From the IMG/VR virus record IMGVR_UViG_3300010379_000031, positions 1-31,244 of that record: DNA of 31,244 nucleotides; one strand, given 5' to 3'. The notes under the pieces are model-generated. The model saw only the letters and a program-made list of their open reading frames with translations. It was not told the DNA's origin and searched no databases. Below are positions 645 through 28,185 of this stretch, piece by piece. Made by a program: the position numbers and the translations under genes. The number at the start of each line of letters is the position of its first letter. Position 1 is the stretch's first letter. The DNA comes from a virus.

Positions 645-674
645 AGTATACCGAGAGGCTCTCGGATTTGGCTA
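645..674 (-). promoter_or_regulatory. Phage promoter motif P1 (TAGCCA-N17-GTATACT)
   Basis: On the - strand TAGCCA (674-669) is followed after exactly 17 nt by GTATACT (651-645). The spacer contains a 7-bp inverted repeat, CCGAGAG/CTCTCGG. It lies upstream of the partial HNH gene and overlaps the 3' codons of a broken reading frame. It is one of eight copies of this motif in the window. Confidence 0.65.
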
Positions 675-707
675 GTATTCCCCCGAATCTTCCAGCCGGT
701 GTTCTCT

Positions 708-749
708 CCCGGTTCTTCTGAGTCCCAGTACGGGATACTGAGAACCGGG
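708..749. terminator. Stem-loop, possible terminator or RNA structure
   Basis: CCCGGTTCT (708-716) pairs with AGAACCGGG (741-749), and CAGTA/TACTG inside forms a second stem around CGGGA, leaving a one-sided bulge of 9 nt. No clear U-run follows on either strand, so a terminator role is uncertain. It overlaps the broken reading frames of 643-1044. Confidence 0.35.
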
Positions 750-764
750 GTAAATTTGGTTGTC

Positions 765-785
765 TCCCCTCGAAGAACGAGGGGA
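765..785. terminator. Stem-loop with perfect 8-bp stem
   Basis: TCCCCTCG (765-772) and CGAGGGGA (778-785) form a perfect 8-bp stem around a 5-nt loop. It sits 16 nt from the hairpin at 708-749. The pair may be a tandem terminator or structured RNA, or may be incidental to coding sequence. There is no long U-run. Confidence 0.35.
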
Positions 786-1048
786 ATTTCTTGTGATGAA
801 CATTTTTTGTGCCAAGCCAGTCACCCCATGAGACCCATCTGTACGATTGGCATCGAATTCAGCGATGACTTGTGCGGTGAGCGTCTTTTGGTAATCGTAA
901 GATTTATCTTTCACAGGCTCGGTATGAGCATCTTCAACTCCACCAGAGTGAGATTTCGCTTTACCGCATTCGATTTGTAGCTGCACAACACCACCATAAA
1001 GGGCAAACGACAAACAGCATGAGGCGCACAAGGAGGGGTTTCATACCC

Positions 1049-1798
1049 TTAGTATACCAGACTTGCCGAGGTTTCGGCTAGTTTTAAGTGACTATTTACT
1101 GTACTTTTTCCTATTCCTAGTTCGTGTGCAATAGCCCTATGCGTCACCCCTTTTTGACGCAATTCAACGATTCTTGCGGTCAATGTATCCTCTTTCCTAT
1201 ACTTATCCCATCTTGCCACCCTTGCTGCGTCCAGCTTTTCTACCATTTTTGAACGATAGGCAGGTTCAGTCCACCGTTGTTTGCTAGTGTAGGCTATTTG
1301 AGCCCGGTAGTCGGGGTCTGTAGTATACCGCTCTGTTCTCTTAGCTACGACATCAGGGTCTTTCGCTCGTTTAAGATTGTTCAACTGAGCCTCACTCTTC
1401 GGAGCCGCCTTCATACGTGCGATAGCCTCTGGAGAGTACACCCGTCCCTTCATCATCGCACTATGATTCCTCTTCCACTCATCTGTATGCTTTCCTGTGA
1501 ATCCTTCCCCTCCCTTGCAGATGTTATAGCCGACTTCAGGATTACGGGTATCGTAGAGGGCGATGAGTAGGCGCTCTAGCCGGTCGAGTTCTTCTTTGGT
1601 TTCAACTTCCATGAGAGGTTCGATTGACCAAACCTCTTTTGAGTGTTTACGCATGGAGTTATAGAGGCGCGATTGACCTCCTCTAAATTTAGCTGCGTCA
1701 GACAGCTTAGTCTGAAGATACTTCTTCAGATTGTTTTTCTTGTGCTGACCGATGTAAATCTTACCTGTTGTGCTATTGGTAATGACGTAAATGAACAT
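1049..1798 (-). CDS. GIY-YIG homing endonuclease
   Basis: The 249-aa protein begins with a GIY-YIG nuclease domain: the first strand is FIYVITN (residues 2-8), the second IYIGQHK (14-20). YNICKGGEGFTGK follows near residue 95, then repeats of the NUMOD type (for example YSPEAIARMKAAP) and, at the C terminus, a helix-turn-helix (THRAIAHELGIGKSTVNSHL). These enzymes nick or cut DNA at a long site and spread their own gene. It lies just downstream of PNK on the same strand. Its start follows the PNK terminator hairpin directly, and the only plausible Shine-Dalgarno (AGGGAG) is the 3' arm of that hairpin. Its last codons (LAETSASLVY) contain promoter P2. Confidence 0.9.
   Translation of the reverse strand: MFIYVITNSTTGKIYIGQHKKNNLKKYLQTKLSDAAKFRGGQSRLYNSMRKHSKEVWSIEPLMEVETKEELDRLERLLIALYDTRNPEVGYNICKGGEGFTGKHTDEWKRNHSAMMKGRVYSPEAIARMKAAPKSEAQLNNLKRAKDPDVVAKRTERYTTDPDYRAQIAYTSKQRWTEPAYRSKMVEKLDAARVARWDKYRKEDTLTARIVELRQKGVTHRAIAHELGIGKSTVNSHLKLAETSASLVY
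1051..1080 (-). promoter_or_regulatory. Phage promoter motif P2 (TAGCCG-N17-GTATACT)
   Basis: TAGCCG (1080-1075) and GTATACT (1057-1051) are separated by 17 nt on the - strand, inside the 3' end of the GIY-YIG gene. The stop codon TAA overlaps the -10 box. It points into the broken gene at 643-1044. Confidence 0.65.
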
Positions 1799-1802
1799 AA
1801 AA

Positions 1803-1827
1803 ATGGCTCCCTACAAGAGGGAGCCAT
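1803..1827 (-). terminator. Terminator of the PNK gene, also covering the RBS of the GIY-YIG gene
   Basis: A perfect 10-bp stem (ATGGCTCCCT / AGGGAGCCAT, loop of 5 nt) is followed on the - strand by TTTT, a textbook intrinsic terminator 17 nt after the PNK stop. The 3' arm also provides AGGGAG, 8 nt before the ATG at 1798, so the folded RNA would block translation of the endonuclease. Confidence 0.75.
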
Positions 1828-1844
1828 AGTTGAATTTCCTGTCA

Positions 1845-2930
1845 CTAAAAATCCTCTAATGCGCTGCAAATTGGACAACGACGATACCCTTTTGACCCCT
1901 TAAACGTACAGGTCGCGGCGTGTTCGGTAGTTCCCGCAACTGGATAAACCTTTAACCCAACTTCCTTCCACGCTCGGATTACACGGGGCCGGTCATCAAT
2001 CACCCAAGCAATTTCATCTTTCCGTACGGTCGTAAGGATTTCGGAAAGTAACTCAGGCTTGATGATAGCATCGCTCCGATTATCCCCGGCTGAACGCATC
2101 ACTATAAAATCAAAAGGAATTTTATATCCATTCAACCAATCAACCGTGTCGGGGCAGCACCCTGCATGGCGTCCCGAAACAATGATGATGTTGTAGTGAG
2201 GGTACAACGCACGCACCCAGTTCGCCACAACCTCGTGTACGCCATCCAGCAGCACCTTGGACTCATCGAAGGGGCTACGGACACCCGTGTGGTCAGCCAG
2301 CGTTCCGTCGATGTCGCACAGGATGAATGGGGAATCCTTCAGCCGACGAGTGAACTCCCCTGTCCGAAAGTCCTCTCGGTCTGCCATGGCGCGATTGAGT
2401 ACGTCTGGATTAACTTCGTACATCTTGGGGGTCACGGTAGCCTCACACAGGGTCTTGTACTGACCCCGAACAACTTTCTCACCGACACACGCGGTGCCGG
2501 TACGCTTGGCGTCACGCTCGATGCACTCCTGAAGCGAAGTGGTCATGTTCACGATACGGAACTTGGCACGGGAGTCACGAGCGATTTCCTCCCACCCGTT
2601 CCGAGTGCGAAGAACACAGTTGGTGTCGTCCACGATAACGTCGGTCACGTGACCTGCACGGAGGGCAGACTTCACACCTTCCTGCTCATAGCGACGAACC
2701 AAATCCTCGTTACGCTTGCCACCGTTCTCCCACGTCACACCGGGGTAAAGCATCGCCCGGAGGTCGTCGCGGTTGAAGCGGAGCACACGACCGTAGCCGT
2801 TCAAAACCCACCCCTTGGTGAGTACAGACTTGCCAGAGCCGGAGAGACCGACCATCATCGTCAGGGTCGGAGCATCCTCACGCCCTGCACTATAATCCAC
2901 AAACTGCTCAGTATAACCACGGTCAGCCAT
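1845..2930 (-). CDS. pseT: Polynucleotide 5'-kinase / 3'-phosphatase
   Basis: This 361-aa protein has the two-domain layout of T4 PNK. The N-terminal kinase has the P-loop GLSGSGKS (28-35) and RFNRDDLR (51-58). The C-terminal HAD-type phosphatase has the nucleophile motif DIDGTLAD (206-213), IIIVSGRHAG (about 252-261) and the acidic motif WVIDDRPR (about 309). T4 PNK (301 aa) repairs nicked RNA and DNA ends so a ligase can rejoin them, for example after tRNA cleavage by host defences; no ligase is visible here. A Cys-rich tail (CTFK ... CPIC) is extra. The start is ATG 2930, placed 4 nt after AGGAGA; the longer TTG-started frame at 2942 would place that RBS inside the coding sequence. It is preceded by promoter P3 and flanked by homing endonuclease genes on both sides. 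Confidence 0.93.
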   Translation of the reverse strand: MADRGYTEQFVDYSAGREDAPTLTMMVGLSGSGKSVLTKGWVLNGYGRVLRFNRDDLRAMLYPGVTWENGGKRNEDLVRRYEQEGVKSALRAGHVTDVIVDDTNCVLRTRNGWEEIARDSRAKFRIVNMTTSLQECIERDAKRTGTACVGEKVVRGQYKTLCEATVTPKMYEVNPDVLNRAMADREDFRTGEFTRRLKDSPFILCDIDGTLADHTGVRSPFDESKVLLDGVHEVVANWVRALYPHYNIIIVSGRHAGCCPDTVDWLNGYKIPFDFIVMRSAGDNRSDAIIKPELLSEILTTVRKDEIAWVIDDRPRVIRAWKEVGLKVYPVAGTTEHAATCTFKGSKGYRRCPICSALEDF

Positions 2931-2948
2931 AGTTCTCCTCAAAGTATT

Positions 2949-2978
2949 AGTATACGAGTAGTGACAGGGGTTTGGCTA
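2949..2978 (-). promoter_or_regulatory. Phage promoter motif P3 (TAGCCA-N17-GTATACT), for PNK
   Basis: TAGCCA (2978-2973) and GTATACT (2955-2949) are 17 nt apart on the - strand. The -10 box ends 19 nt before the PNK ATG, with the RBS between, the expected geometry for a promoter. Confidence 0.7.
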
Positions 2979-3019
2979 CTTTTTGGGTAAGCTTTTGCAA
3001 ATAACGAGAATTACTCAAC

Positions 3020-3046
3020 TTTGGTATCCCTCATTAGGAGACCAAA
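3020..3046 (+). promoter_or_regulatory. Hairpin covering the RBS of the HNH gene at 3047
   Basis: TTTGGT (3020-3025) pairs with ACCAAA (3041-3046), and TCC (3027-3029) with GGA (3037-3039) after an A.G mismatch. The Shine-Dalgarno AGGAG is in the 3' arm and the ATG follows immediately. This would repress translation while folded. Confidence 0.5.
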
Positions 3047-3613
3047 ATGCCAGCATACAACTTTATTGACATCACAGGCCAGCCTTTCGGACGATGGACG
3101 GTAGTGAAAAGAGACCTAAACCGGGGTGCTACTCCCGACGACCAAAATGTGTATTGGCTCTGCCGCTGCCAGTGCGGAACCGAAAAATCGGTGATGGGGA
3201 TGACACTAAAAAGTGGTCGGAGCACTCAATGCCGCCGCTGTTGGGAACAAGGGCACAAACACAACTTAAACGCACGGGTGTGGGGTCGAATCATAAGAAA
3301 TGCAAAAATAAGGAACCTTTCACATCAACTGGGAACCCCAAAAGAGGGTAAGCAGTTTCTGTACGATTTGTTGCACAACAAACAGGCGGGTCGTTGTGCC
3401 CTATCCGGGCTTCCCATAAGCATATCCAACACCATCAAGGGGGACATGCATGGGGAATCCACCGCTTCCCTTGACCGCATTGATTCAAGCAAGGGATACA
3501 CCCGAGACAACGTGCAGTGGGTTCACAAGGATGTGAACAAAATGAAAATGGACTTGGAGCAGCCCGTGTTCATCGCCCTCTGTAAAACTATTGCTTCATA
3601 TAACGATGTTTGA
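3047..3613 (+). CDS. HNH homing endonuclease with N-terminal Cys-rich module
   Basis: The 188-aa protein starts with the Cys-rich DNA-binding module shared with four other proteins here (DITGQPFGRWTVV, then WLCRCQCG and LKSGRSTQCRRC, residues about 8-65). It continues into an HNH domain (about 105-165) with GRCALSGLPIS, LDRIDSSKGYTRDNVQW and a final helix. It lies on the opposite strand to its neighbours, between PNK and deformylase, and its last 26 nt overlap the 3' end of the deformylase gene in a convergent arrangement. That position fits insertion of a mobile gene at an intergenic junction. ATG 3047 follows AGGAG at a normal distance. Confidence 0.9.
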   Translation: MPAYNFIDITGQPFGRWTVVKRDLNRGATPDDQNVYWLCRCQCGTEKSVMGMTLKSGRSTQCRRCWEQGHKHNLNARVWGRIIRNAKIRNLSHQLGTPKEGKQFLYDLLHNKQAGRCALSGLPISISNTIKGDMHGESTASLDRIDSSKGYTRDNVQWVHKDVNKMKMDLEQPVFIALCKTIASYNDV

Positions 3614-4130
3614 TTTTTTCCCACTGACGTAGGAGGGACTTCTGTACCTGCTTGGACATGTGGCTGCGGTCGAAGAACATAATCCCGTCGAGATGCTCGG
3701 CCTCGTGGGTCGCGACCCGTGCATTCATGCCACTCAGTTCCATCTCTTTCTCTTCACCGAGCACTGTGAAGTACCGCATGGATGTGAATTGATGCCTTTC
3801 AACTTGCTCAAACAACGATGGAAGCGACAGACAACCTTCCTGTTCACAGACCAAAGGGCCACTAAACTTAAGGGTTGGATTGCACACCACAAGGGGTGGG
3901 GCAGTCAACTTTCCATCTTTGGCCGACTCAGGGAAATGCATGATAAAAACGCGACTGACTATCCCAACTTGGGGAGCAGCAAGGCCAACACCCTTGTGGG
4001 TGTTCATGGTAGCCAGTAGTTCACTGGCGAACTCTCTCAGTTTGGAGCCAAACTCGGTGCTTCGCACGGGTTCACAAACCTTGGATAACACGGGGTCATC
4101 CCAATATCTTAAGCCAAGAACTCGACTCAT
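3588..4130 (-). CDS. def: Peptide deformylase
   Basis: The 180-aa protein has all three deformylase motifs: GVGLAAPQVG (47-56), EGCLSLP (98-104) and HEAEHLDG (142-149). Cys100, His142 and His146 should bind the catalytic metal and Glu143 should be the catalytic base. The family usually has HExDH, so HEAEH is a small departure. The enzyme removes the formyl group from nascent proteins. Phage versions are known, mainly from marine phages, where they are thought to support translation of phage proteins. The ATG overlaps the stop of the upstream HNH gene (ATGA), so the two are probably translationally coupled. A second HNH gene abuts its 3' end. Confidence 0.95.
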   Translation of the reverse strand: MSRVLGLRYWDDPVLSKVCEPVRSTEFGSKLREFASELLATMNTHKGVGLAAPQVGIVSRVFIMHFPESAKDGKLTAPPLVVCNPTLKFSGPLVCEQEGCLSLPSLFEQVERHQFTSMRYFTVLGEEKEMELSGMNARVATHEAEHLDGIMFFDRSHMSKQVQKSLLRQWEKIKHRYMKQ

Positions 4131-4831
4131 CCCATCCCCAATCTGTGTATGGCAACCTGCCTAATCCAATTGAGAAAATCCTTTTCAGATTCCGCCTGTT
4201 TTCTGTAGTTGCACTTTTTACAAGCCGGTACAACATTACCGGCGATGTACCCCTTAGTGTTATCCAAGCGGTCAATGCCATTGCACATAAAAAATCCGTA
4301 CCCAGTCTTCAATTCCACTTTTCGTTGGGGTTCAGCCCCACAGTAAGCACAGTACCCTTTGATGAGTTTCAGAGTCTCCCCATCTGTCAAACTAAAAACC
4401 AGATGCCGAACCCTTGCACTCCTCCGGTATTCCTTAAGCACCGACCGCGCAGCGGAGGCTCCAAATTCCTTCCGTTCACCTTCCCGTGTCTTGGTGTACA
4501 GGCACCCACAACTTCTTGTACTACTGTGGGTCAATTTGTACCTACCAACGACTGTAGTTTTACCGCAGTCGCACAAACATTCGAAGAAAGTTTTCTGGCG
4601 TCTGGTCTCCTTCAACCGTAGCACGGTGAGGTAGCCAAATCGCTGACTCGTGATGTCCTCAACCCCGCGACAACCACAGCTAGTCCGAATGCCCCGCTTG
4701 AGCCTACTACCCTCCACCAAGCAGTCTGAACCACAGTCGCAACGGCACACCCACACTCGGTGTTTAGCTCCATCCCTGTGAACTGCGGTGAGGTAGCCAA
4801 ACTTTTGACCTGTTAAATCTCCAACTTTCAT
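4127..4831 (-). CDS. HNH homing endonuclease with two tandem Cys-rich modules
   Basis: The 234-aa protein carries the shared module twice in tandem: DLTGQKFGYLTAV ... VCRCDCG ... RTSCGC (about 5-54) and DITSQRFGYLTVL ... CLCDCG ... TRSCGC (about 59-107). An HNH domain follows (about 165-215: GYCAYCG, NGIDRLDNTKGYIAGNVVP, CKKCN). Two copies may extend the recognition site. ATG 4831 is preferred to the TTG-started frame at 4864, because the latter would run through a hairpin (4834-4854) that looks like an untranslated regulatory structure. The 3' end overlaps the deformylase start by 4 nt and supplies its purine-rich leader (GGGGATGGG). Promoter P4 lies upstream. Confidence 0.9.
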   Translation of the reverse strand: MKVGDLTGQKFGYLTAVHRDGAKHRVWVCRCDCGSDCLVEGSRLKRGIRTSCGCRGVEDITSQRFGYLTVLRLKETRRQKTFFECLCDCGKTTVVGRYKLTHSSTRSCGCLYTKTREGERKEFGASAARSVLKEYRRSARVRHLVFSLTDGETLKLIKGYCAYCGAEPQRKVELKTGYGFFMCNGIDRLDNTKGYIAGNVVPACKKCNYRKQAESEKDFLNWIRQVAIHRLGMG

Positions 4832-4833
4832 AA

Positions 4834-4854
4834 AGCCCCCATACTTAGGGGGCT
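4834..4854 (-). promoter_or_regulatory. GC-rich hairpin directly before the HNH start codon
   Basis: AGCCCCC and GGGGGCT form a perfect 7-bp stem with a 7-nt loop. The ATG at 4831 comes 2 nt after the stem, so the only G-rich RBS candidate is in its 3' arm. It could also act as a weak terminator for the gene at 4868-5305. Confidence 0.5.
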
Positions 4855-4867
4855 GATAGTTCAATCA

Positions 4868-5305
4868 CTAGAATAATACCGGACTCGACACGGGATTGGC
4901 TAGTTTTTCGTCAATTTTTTCTTCACGCCTGAGAAGGCATCGTTTGTGCCCGGTGAACAACTCACTCCAAACCTCGGGCTTGACCCCGGCTTGAAGCCAA
5001 TGTACCCACATACCGTCTACAACTTGCTGCTTCCATGACCGGCTGTTCACCAGCTTGCCTTTACGAATGACCTGTCGCGGTCTCAAGTTGATTTTCTTGT
5101 CCCACTTGATGGTGCCGTGCCAAAGTACACTACCATCTTCAGCGTACACGGTGAAGTCATCGCCCTCTTTGAGTTCACGGAGCCCTTCGTACTTCCAGTG
5201 GATACCGTCTTCGCACAGGAAGCCGTCTTCCTGCATAGCCCACCAGCCGCCCTCGGTGCCCGTCTCACTGAAAAGATGGGCTTCGCCCTTCATCTCTTTA
5301 ATCAT
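4868..5305 (-). CDS. Hypothetical phage protein, 145 aa
   Basis: Soluble, aromatic- and acid-rich protein with no motif I can name (for example GGWWAMQEDGFLCEDGIHW and FTVYAEDGSVLWHGTI, which look like short beta strands). ATG 5305 follows AGGAG and overlaps the stop of the upstream gene (ATGA), so it is part of the - strand operon. Its last codons (LANPVSSPVLF) contain promoter P4. It could be a small beta-barrel regulatory or DNA-modification accessory protein, but nothing decides this. Confidence 0.75.
   Translation of the reverse strand: MIKEMKGEAHLFSETGTEGGWWAMQEDGFLCEDGIHWKYEGLRELKEGDDFTVYAEDGSVLWHGTIKWDKKINLRPRQVIRKGKLVNSRSWKQQVVDGMWVHWLQAGVKPEVWSELFTGHKRCLLRREEKIDEKLANPVSSPVLF
4873..4902 (-). 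promoter_or_regulatory. Phage promoter motif P4 (TAGCCA-N17-GTATTAT)
   Basis: TAGCCA (4902-4897) and GTATTAT (4879-4873) are 17 nt apart on the - strand, inside the 3' end of 4868-5305. It would drive the HNH and deformylase genes. Confidence 0.6.
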
Positions 5306-7935: not shown

Positions 7936-8117
7936 AGCTCGGTCTCCTGTTCAGGGGTCACCTTCGCGAAGAAGGTTTTGATAAGCCAGTCATCAGCGTC
8001 ATAGAGACCGAAGTGACGGGCAAGCTTCTGTAGCTCGACCATTTGGGCAGTCAAAGAGCCTTGGTGCTGCCCCGGACGAGCGGTGGTGGTAAGGATTCTT
8101 CGTGTGGCGTCTCTCAC
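7932..8117 (-). CDS. Hypothetical small protein, 61 aa
   Basis: No recognised motif. GTG 8117 overlaps the stop of the preceding gene (GTGA) and is preceded by AGGAG, which sits inside the palindrome TGAGGAGCCTCA. The same 12-nt palindrome precedes the start at 18991. Ends with the ATGA overlap into the next gene. Confidence 0.6.
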   Translation of the reverse strand: MRDATRRILTTTARPGQHQGSLTAQMVELQKLARHFGLYDADDWLIKTFFAKVTPEQETEL

Positions 8118-8380
8118 TGTTGAGGCTCCTCAAAAATCTGACGGCAGTACAGGCAGCAGTGGGTAAGGTGATGGGCGGTAATCTCCACGCTCAAATCCCA
8201 AGCCACGTCTTTTCCGCAAAGGGAGGGTGTGTCGGCTCCGCCGCCTAGCTTTCGGCCAGCAGGTCCGAGTTTCCGAATGTGCCATGGGGTAACTCCACTG
8301 GCGAACATCGTCTCACAGAAAGCATGAGTAAGCGGGGGTAATAGGGTGACCGGCTTTCGAAATGGGTTCCAGAATTTCAC
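8114..8380 (-). CDS. Small putative zinc-binding protein, 88 aa
   Basis: The C-terminal half has a Cys/His cluster: SLCGKDVAW ... TAHHLTHCCLYC. The spacing could bind one zinc ion. GTG 8380 follows GGGGGAG. Function unknown; it is co-transcribed with its neighbours. Confidence 0.65.
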   Translation of the reverse strand: MKFWNPFRKPVTLLPPLTHAFCETMFASGVTPWHIRKLGPAGRKLGGGADTPSLCGKDVAWDLSVEITAHHLTHCCLYCRQIFEEPQQ

Positions 8381-8389
8381 AACTCCCCC

Positions 8390-8548
8390 TTATAGCTCAT
8401 CGTTGTACCGTTCCCGCCGTTCGAGAAACTTGGTGTCGTACTCCCAATAGCGTCCATTGAGAATACCGAACTCGATGCGGGAGTGAATGTAGTGGGCTCC
8501 GATGATGTCGTCTTTATATCCACGGAGCCAGCGGGGTCTGTTATCCAT
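8390..8548 (-). CDS. Hypothetical small protein, 52 aa
   Basis: ATG 8548 (MDNRPRWLRGYKDD) is chosen because GAGGT lies 7 nt upstream; the frame extends to 8599 without an RBS. Rich in Arg, Tyr and Asp. The stop of the upstream gene overlaps. Function unknown. Confidence 0.6.
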   Translation of the reverse strand: MDNRPRWLRGYKDDIIGAHYIHSRIEFGILNGRYWEYDTKFLERRERYNDEL

Positions 8549-8663
8549 TGGTAACCTCGGTCTTAGCAGCACGATACGCCTTCCGGGCAGCTTTAGCAAG
8601 CTCGGGGTGAAAGGTCTGAATCACATAGGTTACGAAGTGGCGTTCTCCAAGTGTTGTTGCCAA
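8541..8663 (-). CDS. Small protein, about 40 aa, TTG start, first gene after promoter P5
   Basis: The open frame continues upstream to 8789 but promoter P5 lies within that extension, so translation must start after it. TTG 8663 preceded by GGAG at 11 nt is the best in-frame start, giving a short helical protein (ELAKAARKAYRAAKTEV). A competing 20-codon frame (ATG 8666) is less protein-like. Function unknown. Confidence 0.45.
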   Translation of the reverse strand: MATTLGERHFVTYVIQTFHPELAKAARKAYRAAKTEVTNG

Positions 8664-8684
8664 GCATAGACCATCTCCACAAAC

Positions 8685-8714
8685 AGTATACCAGCCAATT
8701 GGTCGATTTAGCCA
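8685..8714 (-). promoter_or_regulatory. Phage promoter motif P5 (TGGCTA-N17-GTATACT)
   Basis: TGGCTA (8714-8709) and GTATACT (8691-8685) are 17 nt apart on the - strand. The spacer contains CCAATTGG. It heads the small-gene operon that runs leftwards from 8663, back to back with the tail-fibre genes. Confidence 0.65.
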
Positions 8715-8813
8715 CATTTCTGGAAAATTTTTTACTTGGGGAAAATGTGACTTTCTTTTCCTCAATATAGAGACCCGTCCCAACCACAAGACGGCTCAAC
8801 TAGAAGACCCTTC

Positions 8814-9122
8814 ATGGTGCTACCAGCACCGTGCAAGCGTTCGTCTGCGGAGGCATGGATGGCAAACCAATCAGGGTTTCAGACGAACACTACCATTCAC
8901 GCGGCCTTCTGGTGGTACAAACCCGACCCCTCACTTGACCCCACTGGACGTGAAATCATGATTGAAGTCAATGGGATACAGAAAATCGAATCCAACCAAC
9001 AGCACTCCAAAGTGTGGCTCTACTACGCCGCCAACAACGTGTCAACCTCTTTAGAGCCTTACATTCTTGAAGGGTCGGTTGCCGTTGCCTTCATGTCAGA
9101 TATGGAGGCTTTGTTCGTCTAA
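8814..9122 (+). CDS. Small virion-associated protein, 102 aa (first gene of the tail cluster)
   Basis: No named motif. It is soluble, beta-rich in the second half, and precedes four tail-fibre genes with a TAATG overlap to the next, which suggests a structural or assembly role. ATG 8814 has only a weak RBS (AGAAGA). Upstream AT-rich DNA (8720-8770) may hold a late promoter, but no copy of the TAGCCA-N17-GTATACT motif faces this way. Confidence 0.6.
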   Translation: MVLPAPCKRSSAEAWMANQSGFQTNTTIHAAFWWYKPDPSLDPTGREIMIEVNGIQKIESNQQHSKVWLYYAANNVSTSLEPYILEGSVAVAFMSDMEALFV

Positions 9123-17872: not shown

Positions 17873-18775
17873 TTAGAACACCCAAGCTTTGGAATTCATC
17901 TCTTGGTGGGGGCAAACCGCACCGTTCACACTCTTCCCCATGTTGCAATTCCAGCAGTTGGTCTGGAGTAAGTCGGGGAACTTATTCTTAATCGCCCACC
18001 GATATAGTGTGCTATTACCAATCTCTTTTCGATGAGCAGCACCGTCGTTATTCACGTGGTCTAAAGTAAGAAATCGTTCATCGAACTCAATGCCGCAGCA
18101 AGCACACATACGACCATAGTGGTCAAAGCAAATCTTCTTGTTCTGACGATGGTATTCTCGACCATCGGCTGCACAATTTTCGCAATTGACTTGGCCCTCA
18201 CAGGATGGCTCACGACCGCAGGTTACACACAGACCAAGTTGTTTACGTTTGGTGGCAATTTCCTTACTCTTTTTTGAACTCCTCTCTGAGCAGGATTTAC
18301 ACAAAGAGAGTCCGGGAATGGTTGGGTTTTGGTCAGAGCAGTAGGCGCAAACTCCCGCCATTTTCTTCTTGGCACGACCTGCGTTGGCGAGTTTTGAACA
18401 TGGGTCGCAATCCACTCGATTAGGCTTGGCTGGGGAGTTACCACAACGCATACACATACCAGTGGCCCTGCGCTCGGCTCGTCTAGTTTTTTGTCGTTCT
18501 AGTTGTCTCTGGTATTTTGCTTGGTCTTTCGGTTCTAGCATAACCACTTCTCCCGGAAATCTGAATTCAAAGGGGTCAATGCCGAGTCGATAGGCTACAA
18601 CTCGCCGATATTCTTCGAGTAGCAAATTCCCCTTACCCTCGTTGCAGGTTCTGCAAGCGTTAACCACATTGTGGGTTTCTCCCCCACCTTTAGACCGAGG
18701 CACAATGTGGTCCTTGGTGGCTTTTCGCCTAGATAGCCTATCCCCGCAGTAAAAGCAGTGGCGGATGTGAACCAT
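17873..18775 (-). CDS. Double-HNH endonuclease with three zinc ribbons
   Basis: This 300-aa protein joins two nuclease domains. Residues 1-80 form a complete classic HNH domain (CFYCGD, KDHIVPRSKGGGETHNVVN, CRTCNEGKGN). Three zinc ribbons follow (about 107-205: CMRCG ... CDPC, CAYC ... CKSC, CVTCG ... CENC). Residues about 220-290 form a second HNH-like domain (CACCG, LTLDHVNNDGAAHRKE, NCWNCNMGK). The ribbons and second HNH match the protein at 19114-19779. It lies 3 nt after 18779-18991, whose final codons hold its RBS (GAGGAG). Probably a homing endonuclease formed by fusion. Confidence 0.85.
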   Translation of the reverse strand: MVHIRHCFYCGDRLSRRKATKDHIVPRSKGGGETHNVVNACRTCNEGKGNLLLEEYRRVVAYRLGIDPFEFRFPGEVVMLEPKDQAKYQRQLERQKTRRAERRATGMCMRCGNSPAKPNRVDCDPCSKLANAGRAKKKMAGVCAYCSDQNPTIPGLSLCKSCSERSSKKSKEIATKRKQLGLCVTCGREPSCEGQVNCENCAADGREYHRQNKKICFDHYGRMCACCGIEFDERFLTLDHVNNDGAAHRKEIGNSTLYRWAIKNKFPDLLQTNCWNCNMGKSVNGAVCPHQEMNSKAWVF

Positions 18776-19779: not shown

Positions 19780-20426
19780 TTTCCTGACACCATGATGTGA
19801 AAACACCGCTGGCGATATTCTTCTTCGACTTCAACCATCCCTTCGGCGTGAAGGGGAAGAAGATAAATCTCAACCCATTTCCCTTCTTCCACAGTCATAC
19901 GTCTCCGGGCGAGGTCAATCGTAGTTCCGGCCAAGTGAGAAGATGCCGTCTCGCCTTCAGCCGGTGCGGCGTTGCCGTTCCACCGACGCAGTTTCTTCTG
20001 GACCTCCACCGTGCGAACAGCGGAGTCCACCATGATGGGCTCATGGAACTGTGCGTAGAAGGCGTCACTCAGACGGGTAAGAAACTGAGCCGTCCATGGG
20101 CGGCAGTACCGGCGATTCTCAGGAAGGTGCGGGTCTACCGTCAAGTGACTGTTCAAAGGCAGAGGCACCAAGTCTCCCGACTTGATAAGGGATTCAAGTT
20201 CGCGGTCGTCCTTGATGCGAGGAAGGCCGAGGCGGTCAATCTCTTCATTCTGAGCCAATAAACTGGCTCTAGTTGGAGGAAACATCGGATGCCAAAAGGG
20301 ACGCCGAAGATTCTTCGGGACGCTGATGTAGCTGTAATGGCGACTACGATTATGCTTAAACTTAACACCGGAGCACGGCGTCACCAATACCAATAACAAT
20401 GTCATAACAAAAATTTGTTTGAGCAT
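19656..20426 (-). CDS. Secreted DUF5715/M15-like peptidase, probable cell-wall hydrolase
   Basis: The 256-aa protein has an N-terminal signal peptide (hydrophobic segment about 5-19) and a domain with the metal-peptidase pattern SSHLAGTTID (His164, Asp171) and CFHIMVSGNYG (His210), plus SAVRT (135-139). This His-x6-Asp ... His layout is that of the LAS/M15 D,D- or L,D-carboxypeptidase group. The segment VPKNLRRPFWHPMFPPTRAS and the rest of the layout resemble DUF5715 proteins, which I know mainly from Acidobacteriota. It may be an exported endolysin or an acquired host gene. GGAG precedes ATG 20426, within the 3' end of the HNH gene it overlaps by 25 nt. HNH genes flank it on both sides. Confidence 0.75.
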   Translation of the reverse strand: MLKQIFVMTLLLVLVTPCSGVKFKHNRSRHYSYISVPKNLRRPFWHPMFPPTRASLLAQNEEIDRLGLPRIKDDRELESLIKSGDLVPLPLNSHLTVDPHLPENRRYCRPWTAQFLTRLSDAFYAQFHEPIMVDSAVRTVEVQKKLRRWNGNAAPAEGETASSHLAGTTIDLARRRMTVEEGKWVEIYLLPLHAEGMVEVEEEYRQRCFHIMVSGNYGTEAPTIEIEFDWRLGVNTKGMQTVPMVSEDFSHPQLVQ

Positions 20427-20932
20427 GGTTTCAACTCCGGGAAGTTCTGAATGAGGTACAACATGTGCTCGTATGAAAGTGCTGCTCCTTTCATGTGGTT
20501 ATGTCGGGTGCAGCATCGAACACTGTTTTCTATCGTGTAACCTAGCCCTGCAACTTTTTGGTCTAAACCAGACCCCACACTCGGTGGTAGAACTTCACCA
20601 CCATAAACACAGGGTTGAGCCAAAAGAGCTTCATACTGATGCTTCGTGATAATACAGGGTACATTACGTACTTTGGACGAGTGTCGCAAAGCATGATAAC
20701 GGGCTACATACCTTGTTCTATCGTGCGGTCCACCTTCAAACGTTCTCGTCTTAATCAGACACGCTTTGCACTGAGTGCTTCCGCCCCGTCGCAGATTGGA
20801 ACCATGAACAGGGTGGATGTTTCCACAATCACATCGACACAGCCACATAGCTTGGCCGGTTGCAGAGGAAGTTGTTGCCGACAAAACAACCCATTTACCG
20901 AATCGTTTCCCCGTGATGTCTTTTCGAGGCAC
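20402..20932 (-). CDS. HNH endonuclease with degenerate zinc ligands
   Basis: The 176-aa protein has the shared Cys-rich module (DITGKRFGKWVVL, WLCRCDCG, STQCKAC; about 5-60). Its HNH-like domain (about 107-150) reads CVYGGEVLPPSVGSGLDQKV and CCTRHNHMKG. Relatives usually have CxYCG and CCxxCN, so one Cys is replaced by Gly, and another by His or Arg depending on alignment; the usual LDR is LDQ. It may be inactive. GTG 20932 follows AAGGAG. Promoter P7 is upstream. It overlaps the peptidase start by 25 nt. Confidence 0.8.
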   Translation of the reverse strand: MPRKDITGKRFGKWVVLSATTSSATGQAMWLCRCDCGNIHPVHGSNLRRGGSTQCKACLIKTRTFEGGPHDRTRYVARYHALRHSSKVRNVPCIITKHQYEALLAQPCVYGGEVLPPSVGSGLDQKVAGLGYTIENSVRCCTRHNHMKGAALSYEHMLYLIQNFPELKPCSNKFLL

Positions 20933-24475: not shown

Positions 24476-25003
24476 CTAACCTCTAAAACGTTTTAATGCG
24501 GCGGTCATGCATTTCCATTCCTCATAAGAATACCTATCCGCCTTCGCATAATTACATGTCTTACAACAAACCACGCAATTTTCAAGTGAGTATCCCTTTG
24601 AATTATCTTTCCTGTCCAAGTTATACCGCTTCACACCAGTCGTTCTCTGAGGGGCGTACTCGGGCCATTTAATGGGTTCGCCACAGTAGTGACACTCTAC
24701 ATCCTTAGTGAAAAATACAAACTCCTCGTAACTCAAATTTATAGGCATCTCATAACTGGCGGCTGAGTGTAGGAATGATGTGTACAGAGCCCCAAATGGT
24801 CTTCCCCGGTTTGCCTGTAGCAGTCGTTTTTTTCGAATACAACCGCAGTTGGTTGACCTCCCGCTCTTTAAATGCTCAGTCCGTACCGGCGATGTCTTTC
24901 CGCATGAACATTTGCACACGGTTATCGAGCGTTTATCAACCGTTTTGGGTTCCTCAGCAACCACCCAATCCCCGAAGTTTTTACCAACAAAAATGCCCGT
25001 CAT
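24476..25003 (-). CDS. HNH homing endonuclease
   Basis: The 175-aa protein has the shared Cys-rich module at the N terminus (VGKNFGDWVVAEE, VCKCSCGK, LKSGRSTNCGC; about 5-57). It is followed by an HNH domain (about 107-160: VECHYCGEPI, NLDRKDNSKGYSLENCV, CCKTCNYAKAD) with complete metal ligands. ATG 25003 lacks a convincing RBS. It lies just downstream of the NusG-like gene on the same strand. Confidence 0.9.
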   Translation of the reverse strand: MTGIFVGKNFGDWVVAEEPKTVDKRSITVCKCSCGKTSPVRTEHLKSGRSTNCGCIRKKRLLQANRGRPFGALYTSFLHSAASYEMPINLSYEEFVFFTKDVECHYCGEPIKWPEYAPQRTTGVKRYNLDRKDNSKGYSLENCVVCCKTCNYAKADRYSYEEWKCMTAALKRFRG

Positions 25004-25046: not shown

Positions 25047-26276
25047 TTATGCCCTCTTTTTGCCTTCGATGTTACGACGAGATGCGTGCCACTTCTTCAA
25101 GCCAGCAATCATCTTCGCTTTGTTCGCAGGGCTCAATACCCGCTTTTTCTTCTTCTTTTTGGTCTCCACAACAACAGGCGGATGAGTCTTTACCTTACGG
25201 GGGCGACCACGACGCTTGGGGGCTTCCTCACCCTTCTTGGGCTCTGGAATCTCCTCTTCACTACTTAATACCGGGATTTTCAAACTTGAGTCGATTTCTG
25301 CTATCTGTTGAGCAGAAAATTTGTACGGCTTGCCATACTTGTTGATGACATCCCGGTAGTTGCTGATGCTGGGGTCAATCTTGCGAAAATAATTCCGCAT
25401 GAGATTGTCCTTAACTATGCAGTAGATAATGAAGTAATTCTTGGGAATTTTGATGTCCCCCTGCTTGAGAGCCTCAACTACCAACTTGCAGATAGTCATG
25501 GGGTCATGGTGGTTCTCAATCAGAATGAGACGCTTAACCAAAGCGGTGACTGTCTTCTGCCGGGAGTGCCGCTTGGGCTCATGATGAATCTCTTCAGGGA
25601 GGTCAAGAGGAGCCGCACCATCTTCCAGCTTCAGGTCCTCTTCAATGAGACGAAGCCCTTCACCATCTCGTTCCCTGACAAGTTCGTCCACTAAGGGACA
25701 ATAGTAGTACACCCTGCGGTCGGCGGGGACTTGGGATATGTTGAGGAGATTGCGTAAAGGAGTTTCCAGTAATATGCTCTTGGTCTTGAGGTTAATTCGA
25801 ACAATTGCCTTGCCGTCACCGATAGCCTCCACCACACCACAATAATCGCGGGTCTCACCGTTCAATACACGCACGAATGAATCCACTTCAATACCGATAG
25901 CACGCTTGCGGAACTCTTCCTCGGCGTCGGCGATGACAGATTGAACATACTCGTCATCCACCTTGATAGCCTTGGAGGGTCGATTGGAGTCACCCTCAGT
26001 CACCAAGGATACAACGCCAGTGATGGTCTTGAGCCGCAGGAGACTTTGAAAACTCGTGCTGCGAACGAACACATAACAACCCGTCTTCATCTCAAACAGG
26101 TCAAGGTCGCGGTTGAAGACAGGAATGAAAATCTCTATCGGGTCACCGCGAAAGATGCTTGGAATGGCCTTACCAATTCTACGCATCGTAGGTTCAATGG
26201 TCTTTTCACTCCTCAACTCGACCATGTACCAAGGCTCGTTATTCAAAAGGGCGCAGTTTCCATATTCCAAAATCAT
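25047..26276 (-). CDS. NusG-like transcription factor with AT-hook tail, 409 aa
   Basis: Residues about 15-95 match the NGN fold (PWYMVELRSEKTIEPTMRR, IPVFNRDLDLF, GCYVFVRS), and about 132-175 match a KOW domain (FVRVLNGETRDYCGVVEAIG, VRINLKTKSILLETPL). NusG, RfaH and Spt5 bind RNA polymerase through NGN and modulate pausing and termination. The protein is more than twice NusG length. The extra 230 residues contain a helical region (about 250-330), an AT-hook (RRGRPRK, about 355-361), a poly-Lys run and a basic end. ATG 26276 follows AGGTGG and overlaps the stop of the upstream GIY-YIG gene (ATGA). Could act as a phage anti-termination factor; assignment rests on motif pattern only. Confidence 0.65.
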   Translation of the reverse strand: MILEYGNCALLNNEPWYMVELRSEKTIEPTMRRIGKAIPSIFRGDPIEIFIPVFNRDLDLFEMKTGCYVFVRSTSFQSLLRLKTITGVVSLVTEGDSNRPSKAIKVDDEYVQSVIADAEEEFRKRAIGIEVDSFVRVLNGETRDYCGVVEAIGDGKAIVRINLKTKSILLETPLRNLLNISQVPADRRVYYYCPLVDELVRERDGEGLRLIEEDLKLEDGAAPLDLPEEIHHEPKRHSRQKTVTALVKRLILIENHHDPMTICKLVVEALKQGDIKIPKNYFIIYCIVKDNLMRNYFRKIDPSISNYRDVINKYGKPYKFSAQQIAEIDSSLKIPVLSSEEEIPEPKKGEEAPKRRGRPRKVKTHPPVVVETKKKKKKRVLSPANKAKMIAGLKKWHASRRNIEGKKRA

Positions 26277-26995
26277 TGTGCCCACCTACGTAATGCGGCA
26301 TGACGCATTTTCTGTTTTGCCTCTTCAGACCGACTTTGGCCGAATCTGCTACACCCGCAACTCCGAGTACCTGTAGACTTTAGTAGGTTAGAAGTGGTGG
26401 GAGTTATCCTTCTCCCGCAGTCGCACTGACAATCCCAGTGGCCCCCGCCCACCCATTTCAAAACCAACAACTTTCCAATTCGGGTACCCAATAAGTCTTT
26501 AAAGTTATTATTTTTTGACCCCACCTGAGCCGCACTTTTCCGCTGTGACCACTCCGGTGTGAACCCACGCCCAATCAATGCCTGACTTATCTTCTTAGCA
26601 GTTTCAGAACCGGCCACCACTGGGTTCAACTTCCGGTAATCAGAAATCTTCTGCTTTGCAGATTCTGACTGCTTTGTTCCTAGTCGAATTTCAGGACCAC
26701 CATCACCACCGGGACTCATGTTGTATCCGAACCCTAACTTAGGTGGGAACGAACGATACTTGGCGATAAAGTACCGCTCATATTTATTTAGCTCATCCTT
26801 ATGCGGGACTTCCGTGACAACAGAGATTTCAAAGTTCTCAGACCCATATTTACGCAGAGCGGCGTGGAGCAAAAGGCGACTGTCTTTGCTAAAAGCAGAG
26901 ATTAAGTGCTGCTGCCACCGCCGAGAAAGGGAGTAGTTAGTCTTACCCACATACACTTTCCCGTTTATCTTGTTTGTAACTATGTAGATGAGCAT
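26273..26995 (-). CDS. GIY-YIG homing endonuclease with the HNH-family Cys-rich module
   Basis: The 240-aa protein has a GIY-YIG domain (LIYIVTN at 2-8, VYVGKT at 14-19, YNMSPGGDGG at 91-100), NUMOD3-type repeats (SESAKQKISDYRK, SETAKKISQAL), then the Cys-rich module (about 168-215: LLGTRIGKLLVLKW, WDCQCDCG, TRSCGC) otherwise found on the HNH proteins of this window, and a final repeat (SEEAKQKMRHAALRRW). The 3' codons provide the RBS of the NusG-like gene. ATG 26995 has no clear Shine-Dalgarno and lies 1 nt after a 5-bp hairpin (26997-27014). Confidence 0.9.
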   Translation of the reverse strand: MLIYIVTNKINGKVYVGKTNYSLSRRWQQHLISAFSKDSRLLLHAALRKYGSENFEISVVTEVPHKDELNKYERYFIAKYRSFPPKLGFGYNMSPGGDGGPEIRLGTKQSESAKQKISDYRKLNPVVAGSETAKKISQALIGRGFTPEWSQRKSAAQVGSKNNNFKDLLGTRIGKLLVLKWVGGGHWDCQCDCGRRITPTTSNLLKSTGTRSCGCSRFGQSRSEEAKQKMRHAALRRWAQ

Positions 26996-27033: not shown

Positions 27034-28185
27034 CTAATCGTTGAAGAAACTCTCAATTGAATCGGCGGGGATGATGCCACCCATGGGCGGTGCAGAGGAT
27101 ATTCCACTTCCGCCCTTAGCCCGTGAAGTGGCGTTGGCGGGTACGTCCAGCGTATTCATGAGTTCGTAAACTACAAGAGGCAGGGCGTCTGCGGGTAGGT
27201 TGGTGTTGGACAACCACTTGATAAAGATGGAGTCCACTTCTGCGATATTGGGTAGCCGCGAGGCAATCTGGGCATAGAGGCTCCCCGGCTCCGCCCAAGG
27301 AGTTCGAGCATAGATGGAGAACATGACCTCGATTACCTTACCTGTACTATAGTTCCGGCCAGCCTCATCTATCCACTTGACGGCTTGTATCTGGTCACCC
27401 GTCGCAAGAGAGGCATAGCACTTGTTACAGAGGTCTTCGAGGGTATCATCAAGGGCGGCGATGACCAATTCTCTAGTGACCATTCCCATGGAAGCTACCA
27501 TACCCAACCAGAGAACGGCGTCACGAACGATGCCCTTAGACTTCCGAGCGATAATCTTTAACGCTTCGAGTTCGTATTGAATGTCTTTCTGGTTTGCGAT
27601 GTTCACCAAAAGGCCGAAGATGTTATCCGTGTGTACTCTCTCAAACGGGATGGGAACACACCGGCTGCTGATAGAGTAGGGAATCAAATCTGACCGGCTG
27701 GATGCGAACATGAAGACACTACCGTCTTCTTTGGTTTCAAGCGGCTTGAGAGCCACATCCCACGCCAACCCACTCAAGTCATGAGATTCATCAATGAGCA
27801 GCACCCGGCGTCTGGATTGGGCTGAGGGTGGGGAGTTCATGATGTCGAGCATAGAACGCATGTGTTCCGCACCTGAGTGCGAAGCTGCATCAACCTCCAT
27901 GAAGTCACCACAGAGATTAAGACCCTCTTCGATGCTGTCAGCTTGGTCGATGAACTTGCACGATGCACACTTGCCACAACCCAATGGGTCGTCGCCGGTA
28001 CACATGAGGGCTCTCGCCATCAAGTAGGCACACGTTGTTTTACCGACACCGATAGGTCCGCGAAAGATATAGCCCTTGGGCATGAACTTGGCGGTCGTAA
28101 GAATGCAGTGAAGAAGCCTTAGAGCCCGGTCCTGCCCCACAACCGCGTTCCAGTGTTCAGGGCGTGCTGAGGCTATCAGGTTCAC
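27034..28185 (-). CDS. dnaX: DnaX-like clamp-loader ATPase (Pol III gamma/tau type)
   Basis: The 383-aa protein begins like DnaX (ARPEHWNAVVGQ), with Walker A GPIGVGKTT (43-51), a four-Cys zinc site (Cys62, 70, 73, 76; GCGKCASC), Walker B VLLIDE (128-133), a sensor-1 region ending in SRC (174-176) and a sensor-2 RDA (221-223). The clamp loader opens the sliding clamp on DNA. The layout is that of bacterial DnaX, not of T4 gp44/62. The DHM-like Walker-B tail is ESHDL. The C-terminal tail after about 350 is short and Gly/Pro-rich, so it is gamma-like without a tau extension. GTG 28185 overlaps the stop of the upstream 48-aa gene (GTGA). Confidence 0.9.
   Translation of the reverse strand: MNLIASARPEHWNAVVGQDRALRLLHCILTTAKFMPKGYIFRGPIGVGKTTCAYLMARALMCTGDDPLGCGKCASCKFIDQADSIEEGLNLCGDFMEVDAASHSGAEHMRSMLDIMNSPPSAQSRRRVLLIDESHDLSGLAWDVALKPLETKEDGSVFMFASSRSDLIPYSISSRCVPIPFERVHTDNIFGLLVNIANQKDIQYELEALKIIARKSKGIVRDAVLWLGMVASMGMVTRELVIAALDDTLEDLCNKCYASLATGDQIQAVKWIDEAGRNYSTGKVIEVMFSIYARTPWAEPGSLYAQIASRLPNIAEVDSIFIKWLSNTNLPADALPLVVYELMNTLDVPANATSRAKGGSGISSAPPMGGIIPADSIESFFND

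Follow-up and report, generated by a model that had tools for sequence, protein, structure and literature searches.

A divergent NusG/Spt5-family protein with an additional helical domain in large phages

The question raised by this locus is whether a 409-aa protein encoded on a 31,244-bp viral metagenome record (the whole stretch of DNA analysed, called the window here) is a member of the NusG/Spt5 family, and what a phage could gain from it. The preliminary description had read an N-terminal NGN domain followed by a KOW domain in the protein, and a C-terminal extension with an AT-hook and a Lys-rich run. Scanned as a single sequence, the protein gave no match in Pfam and only a weak unrelated match in PHROG, with NusG in neither, so the NGN/KOW reading needed testing.

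Relationship to the NusG family

The reading frame is open throughout, starting with the ATG at 26276 and ending with a stop at 25047 (Table 1). The ATG at 26276, and not the upstream GTG at 26285, was taken as the start because the N-termini of the relatives share M-[IL]-L-x-[YFW]-G at this same position. The 409-aa protein is under purifying selection across its three domains (NGN, KOW, and C-terminal domain), with dN of 0.06-0.23 and dS of 1.0-2.4 against the nearest relatives. The most conserved region is the KOW domain, for which dN was 0.06-0.08 and dS 1.9-2.4 against the closest relatives.

Table 1. Coordinates of the NusG-like gene, its parts, and neighbouring genes in the window.
Feature	Position	Strand	Basis or remark
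NusG/Spt5-family protein, 409 aa	25047..26276	(-)	ORF, phage-contig family, profile and fold matches to NusG
NGN domain, residues ~13-124	25905..26240	(-)	AlphaFold model against PDB
KOW domain, residues ~125-190	25707..25904	(-)	TIGR00922 match, Foldseek, conservation
Conserved helical C-terminal domain, residues ~238-338	25263..25565	(-)	in all family members; pLDDT ~90; motif RQ[KR]TVTALVK
AT-hook-like motif RRGRPRK, residues 355-361	25194..25214	(-)	identical in L005/L006 and L008
Basic tail, residues ~373-409: Lys run 373-378, then helix RVLSxxNKxKMIxGLKKWHASR	25050..25160	(-)	closest-relative comparison
Clamp-loader (DnaX/delta'-like) gene	27034..28185	(-)	Pfam DNA_pol3_delta2 3.6e-17, phrog_5846 3e-36
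GIY-YIG homing endonuclease, lying between the clamp-loader gene and the NusG-like gene	26273..26995	(-)	PF01541 5.2e-14, phrog_314 2.5e-33
HNH/endonuclease VII-like homing endonuclease, downstream	24476..25003	(-)	phrog_1035 4.1e-17
Homing-endonuclease genes in the window	1049-1798, 4127-4864, 17873-18775, 20402-20932, 24476-25003, 26273-26995		

A profile built from the NGN-KOW part (first ~205 residues) of nine members was compared with the PDB, and 16 of the 17 sequences matched up to E = 10 were NusG (best E 0.0023). The NCBIfam models nusG and UpxY each matched eight of these nine members, with best values of 2.7e-5 and 1.7e-5, respectively. The window protein itself matched nusG (TIGR00922) at 1.7e-4 over residues 68-163, and hhalign with E. 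coli NusG gave 5.2e-5, covering the end of NGN and the KOW domain. Weak matches to the 'transcription antiterminator' profile phrog_6386 were found in 13 of 17 members (best 9.2e-5; 0.016 for the window protein). The TIGR00922 score of the window protein, 21.4 bits, is far under the curated equivalog cut-off of 135.7 bits, and it is therefore a relative of NusG and not the orthologous housekeeping NusG. The gathering cut-off of the Pfam NusG model (PF02357), which is a threshold of sensitivity and not a structural trait, was not reached by the single sequences or in five family genomes, so the NGN domain must be regarded as very divergent. The FPGY hallmark is partly kept and reads KTGCY in the window protein.

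In the full-length AlphaFold model, the NGN domain was good and the parts outside NGN and the helical domain were poor (pLDDT ~25 for KOW), and thus the KOW and C-terminal domains were refolded on a deeper alignment. Foldseek gave no useful information when the first model was compared with viral structures. By comparing the NGN model with the PDB, the first 38 rows were all NusG, RfaH, or Spt5; the best match was 1m1g, with a Z of 9.2 and an rmsd of 3.4 over 103 residues, and the first unrelated row had a Z of 6.0. The refolded KOW domain matched NusG KOWs in Foldseek with a probability of 0.97-0.99 and an rmsd of ~2.2 over ~50 residues. For this small barrel, the Z values to NusG KOWs were only 4.2-4.8, and Tudor-like barrels reached the same level, so the KOW domain was identified by sequence and position. 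Profiles and predicted folds together support membership in the NusG/Spt5 family, and the proposed order of NGN then KOW was borne out, as both domains resemble the NusG family in the profile searches and in the structure prediction.

The same NGN fold followed by KOW is found in bacterial NusG, RfaH, UpxY, and LoaP. However, these proteins are ~160-250 aa long, whereas the window protein adds a helical domain and a tail past the KOW. The NGN fold is also shared with eukaryotic and archaeal Spt5 (Z 5.8-6.9), which likewise carries extra material past the first KOW, a likeness in general layout only: Spt5 is extended by additional KOWs and a repeat region, whereas the window protein has a helical domain. 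Another difference from bacterial NusG lies in the loop around F165 of the E. coli protein, the residue that makes contact with Rho and S10. The equivalent loop is without a Phe in every family member, which is consistent with a loss of Rho recruitment.

The C-terminal extension

The length of ~230 residues that had been given for the C-terminal extension was right, but the extension is not a single tail. It consists of a variable linker, a conserved helical domain of ~100 residues, and a tail of 70 residues. The helical domain opens with RQ[KR]T[VI]TAL and occurs in every complete member, and its high pLDDT comes from the model refolded on the deeper alignment. No counterpart in sequence was found in the PDB or Pfam. 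Coverage of this domain in the fold searches was poor, and we do not propose it as a new fold. A search with the helical domain alone retrieved the contigs of this family and three further contigs. Two relatives carry an intein with a LAGLIDADG endonuclease in this domain (L008, 3576-4667; L031, 8859-9938). Both inteins, which are 60% identical to each other, are inserted at the same codon, before the Cys equivalent to C286 of the window protein, and the two relatives sharing this site differ in tail type. The shared intein site in an extra domain suggests that the helical domain matters for function.

The tails are much more variable. The segment PKRRGRPRK and the helix that follows the Lys run are found in the window protein, L005/L006, and L008; the helix is kept among these closest relatives, and the Lys run is variable. 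Other, shorter tails were seen in L024, L026, L029, and L030, and the proteins of L010-L014, L035, and Tunturiibacter phage Tunturi_5 end soon past the helical domain. No match was obtained when the tail alone was searched in phages. The AT-hook that had been claimed does exist as a motif and is unchanged among the closest relatives, although it is lineage-specific, is replaced or absent elsewhere, and scores 12.4 bits with Pfam AT_hook (PF02178), under the cut-off of 17.4. Judging from its conservation in sequence, it is a real motif kept within its lineage, but an accessory one. The Lys-rich run is likewise present but not conserved as such. An AT-hook or poly-Lys stretch as the defining feature of the protein was thus rejected, since there are relatives without both.

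A separate observation concerns the sister lineage of L007, L009, L016, L022, and L031, in which the AT-hook tail is replaced by a Cys/His-rich tail of the type CGxCxHxRxxH...PCxCxRF, with a zinc-binding-like appearance (CGECxHxRxxH...PCWCKRF).

The basic AT-hook tail of one lineage and the divergent NGN would also fit a DNA-binding or nucleoid-associated protein in which the NGN/KOW fold has been put to a new use and RNA polymerase binding has been lost. We regard this as the least probable of the readings considered here, because the tail is missing in Tunturi_5 and others, whereas NGN and KOW are the conserved parts.

Phage family and probable role in transcription

In phage records, tblastn found one relative, gp25 (XOB77468.1) of Tunturi_5, a jumbo phage of 308,711 bp whose host is an acidobacterium. 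Iterated searches of viral contigs added ~16 more distinct proteins; the contigs that encode them reach 463 kb. Pattern-seeded searches covering 84,980 genomes of bacteria and archaea found no relatives, and neither did a search of plasmids. All members known here come from large phage contigs or from the jumbo phage Tunturi_5. Some 'phage' records with a NusG were not counted, as they look bacterial (e.g., MaAM05, with secE-nusG-rplK). The Tunturi_5 protein is a direct homolog of the window protein, with 46% identity over residues 1-338, and is already annotated as 'transcription antiterminator'. Unlike the window protein, it has 344 aa, ends past the helical domain, and has neither AT-hook nor Lys tail. 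The genome of Tunturi_5 has been described, and the main text mentions neither antitermination nor NusG (PMC11924767).

A phage-encoded NusG with an AT-hook had been considered unusual. The tail is real in one lineage; however, NusG proteins of phages are already known from PHROG 6386 and PHROG 25909, which have the NGN-KOW order, an antiterminator annotation, and a weak profile link to this family. One of them, g104 of cyanophage S-CRM01, has 193 aa and, unlike the window protein, no C-terminal domain. It is found by tblastn with E. coli NusG, and Tunturi_5 is not among the matches listed. Other phage NusG proteins are also on record. The new element here is a divergent and enlarged NusG family whose members share an additional conserved domain, have exchangeable tails, and are nearly always encoded near a clamp loader. 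Full-text literature searches on phage NusG found no paper on function, and phage NusG paralogues appear to be little studied.

A clamp-loader gene lies upstream of the NusG-like gene on the same strand, at 0 to ~2.4 kb, at every examined family locus but L018. The Tunturi_5 gene also adjoins its clamp loader (gp24). In L018, the adjacent clamp loader is absent and the homolog (8001-9022) is split across three reading frames by two frame changes, a result of assembly errors or of gene decay. The near-invariant adjacency could mean that the helical domain has a binding partner in the clamp, the clamp loader, or the sigma factor of the phage, in the manner of the T4 gp45/gp55/gp33 link of transcription to replication. 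The helical domain was found in this NusG-like family alone, and Tunturi_5 encodes a processivity factor (gp9) as well as two sigma factors, which is in line with such a coupling. The adjacency, on the other hand, may reflect a shared operon only, and we consider the coupling very unlikely. Slightly more doubtful again is the combined reading, in which this NusG paralogue links the host RNA polymerase to the clamp of the phage or to its clamp loader by means of the unique helical domain; if true, a NusG-type protein would make phage transcription dependent on replication.

The gene annotation of Tunturi_5 lists two sigma factors (gp3 and gp211) but does not list an RNA polymerase. A search of five family genomes for a multi-subunit RNA polymerase (PF00562) gave no match, whereas all 14 control genomes were matched; very divergent polymerases of the phiKZ type could, however, escape PF00562. 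Sigma region 2 was matched in two of the five genomes. The search for a T7-type RNA polymerase gave no match, but neither did its control, so it is uninformative. Given the sigma factors of Tunturi_5 and the failure to find a phage RNA polymerase, the NusG-like protein most likely acts on the host RNA polymerase, which is most likely redirected by phage sigma factors in the genomes that have them.

We hypothesize that the protein is a specialised phage paralogue of NusG that serves as a processivity or antitermination factor of the host RNA polymerase, with a probability of about 70%; the functions that we infer for it are binding to the polymerase, antitermination, and, for the tail, binding to DNA. 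The preliminary description had proposed a phage elongation or antitermination factor, and this is still the best inference, given that searches found no phage RNA polymerase and given the two sigma factors and antiterminator annotation of Tunturi_5, although a NusG carried by a phage is not in itself new. In the NusG family, binding of the NGN domain to the clamp helices and gate loop suppresses pausing, and NusG paralogues replace NusG on long operons (PMC7819879, PMC7593976). During elongation, the NGN of the phage protein would take the place of the host NusG on the clamp helices and gate loop of the host RNA polymerase and would keep the transcription of long phage operons free of pauses. 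Recruitment or contacts to partners could come from the KOW, from the phage-specific helical domain, and from the basic tail, which may also add affinity for DNA. The result would be antitermination or processivity of phage transcription, possibly via exclusion of the host NusG and so of Rho. Candidates for recruitment to phage genes are the helical domain, the tail, sigma factors, and replication proteins.

The protein could instead act as a host-takeover factor that occupies the NusG site and uncouples or slows host transcription without aiding that of the phage. An NGN-KOW architecture would be expected to compete with the host NusG, the extra domains could block partners of the polymerase, and the family is found in phages only; an inhibitor of host transcription would look the same as an antiterminator. 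However, in nearly all genomes the gene is part of a replication block and neighbours the clamp loader, and known NusG paralogues mostly activate long operons (PMC7819879), so we consider this role unlikely.

If the antitermination reading is right, large soil phages probably use a NusG-like protein to steer the host RNA polymerase onto their own genes. A large-phage family with a conserved extra domain and exchangeable tails is a natural test of how a NusG-type factor is redirected to phage genes, and since Tunturi_5, which encodes one member, is an isolated phage whose host is in culture, the question is open to bench work.

A family of promoter-like sequences, ASTAGCCRANNCC with GTAT-type -10 boxes ~20 bases on, was observed in the window at 664-676, 1070-1082, 2968-2980, and 4892-4904 (-). 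Four sites were found against 0.03 expected in shuffles, the pattern having been drawn from the same sites. A dedicated promoter family had been put forward in favour of a transcription factor, but it gives no specific support, because the four sites (664-4904) are 20 kb away and there is no copy at the NusG-like gene.

Mobile elements at the locus

Insertions similar to the GIY-YIG gene of the window were found between the clamp loader and the NusG-like gene in L008, L010-L012, and L024/L025, and a gene related to the downstream HNH gene directly follows the NusG-like gene in L031. With GIY-YIG and HNH genes and inteins, the NusG-like locus is a hot spot of mobile elements. The window as a whole carries a dense load, with six homing-endonuclease genes, two of them GIY-YIG and four of HNH types, in 31 kb. 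The helix of the tail (LSPANKAKMIAGLKKWHASRR, 25077-25142) is similar to a NUMOD3-like motif (RSEEAKQKMRHAALRRWAQ, 26276-26332) with which the adjacent GIY-YIG protein ends. From this resemblance in sequence, the tail of the NusG-like protein may derive from a DNA-binding module of a homing endonuclease.
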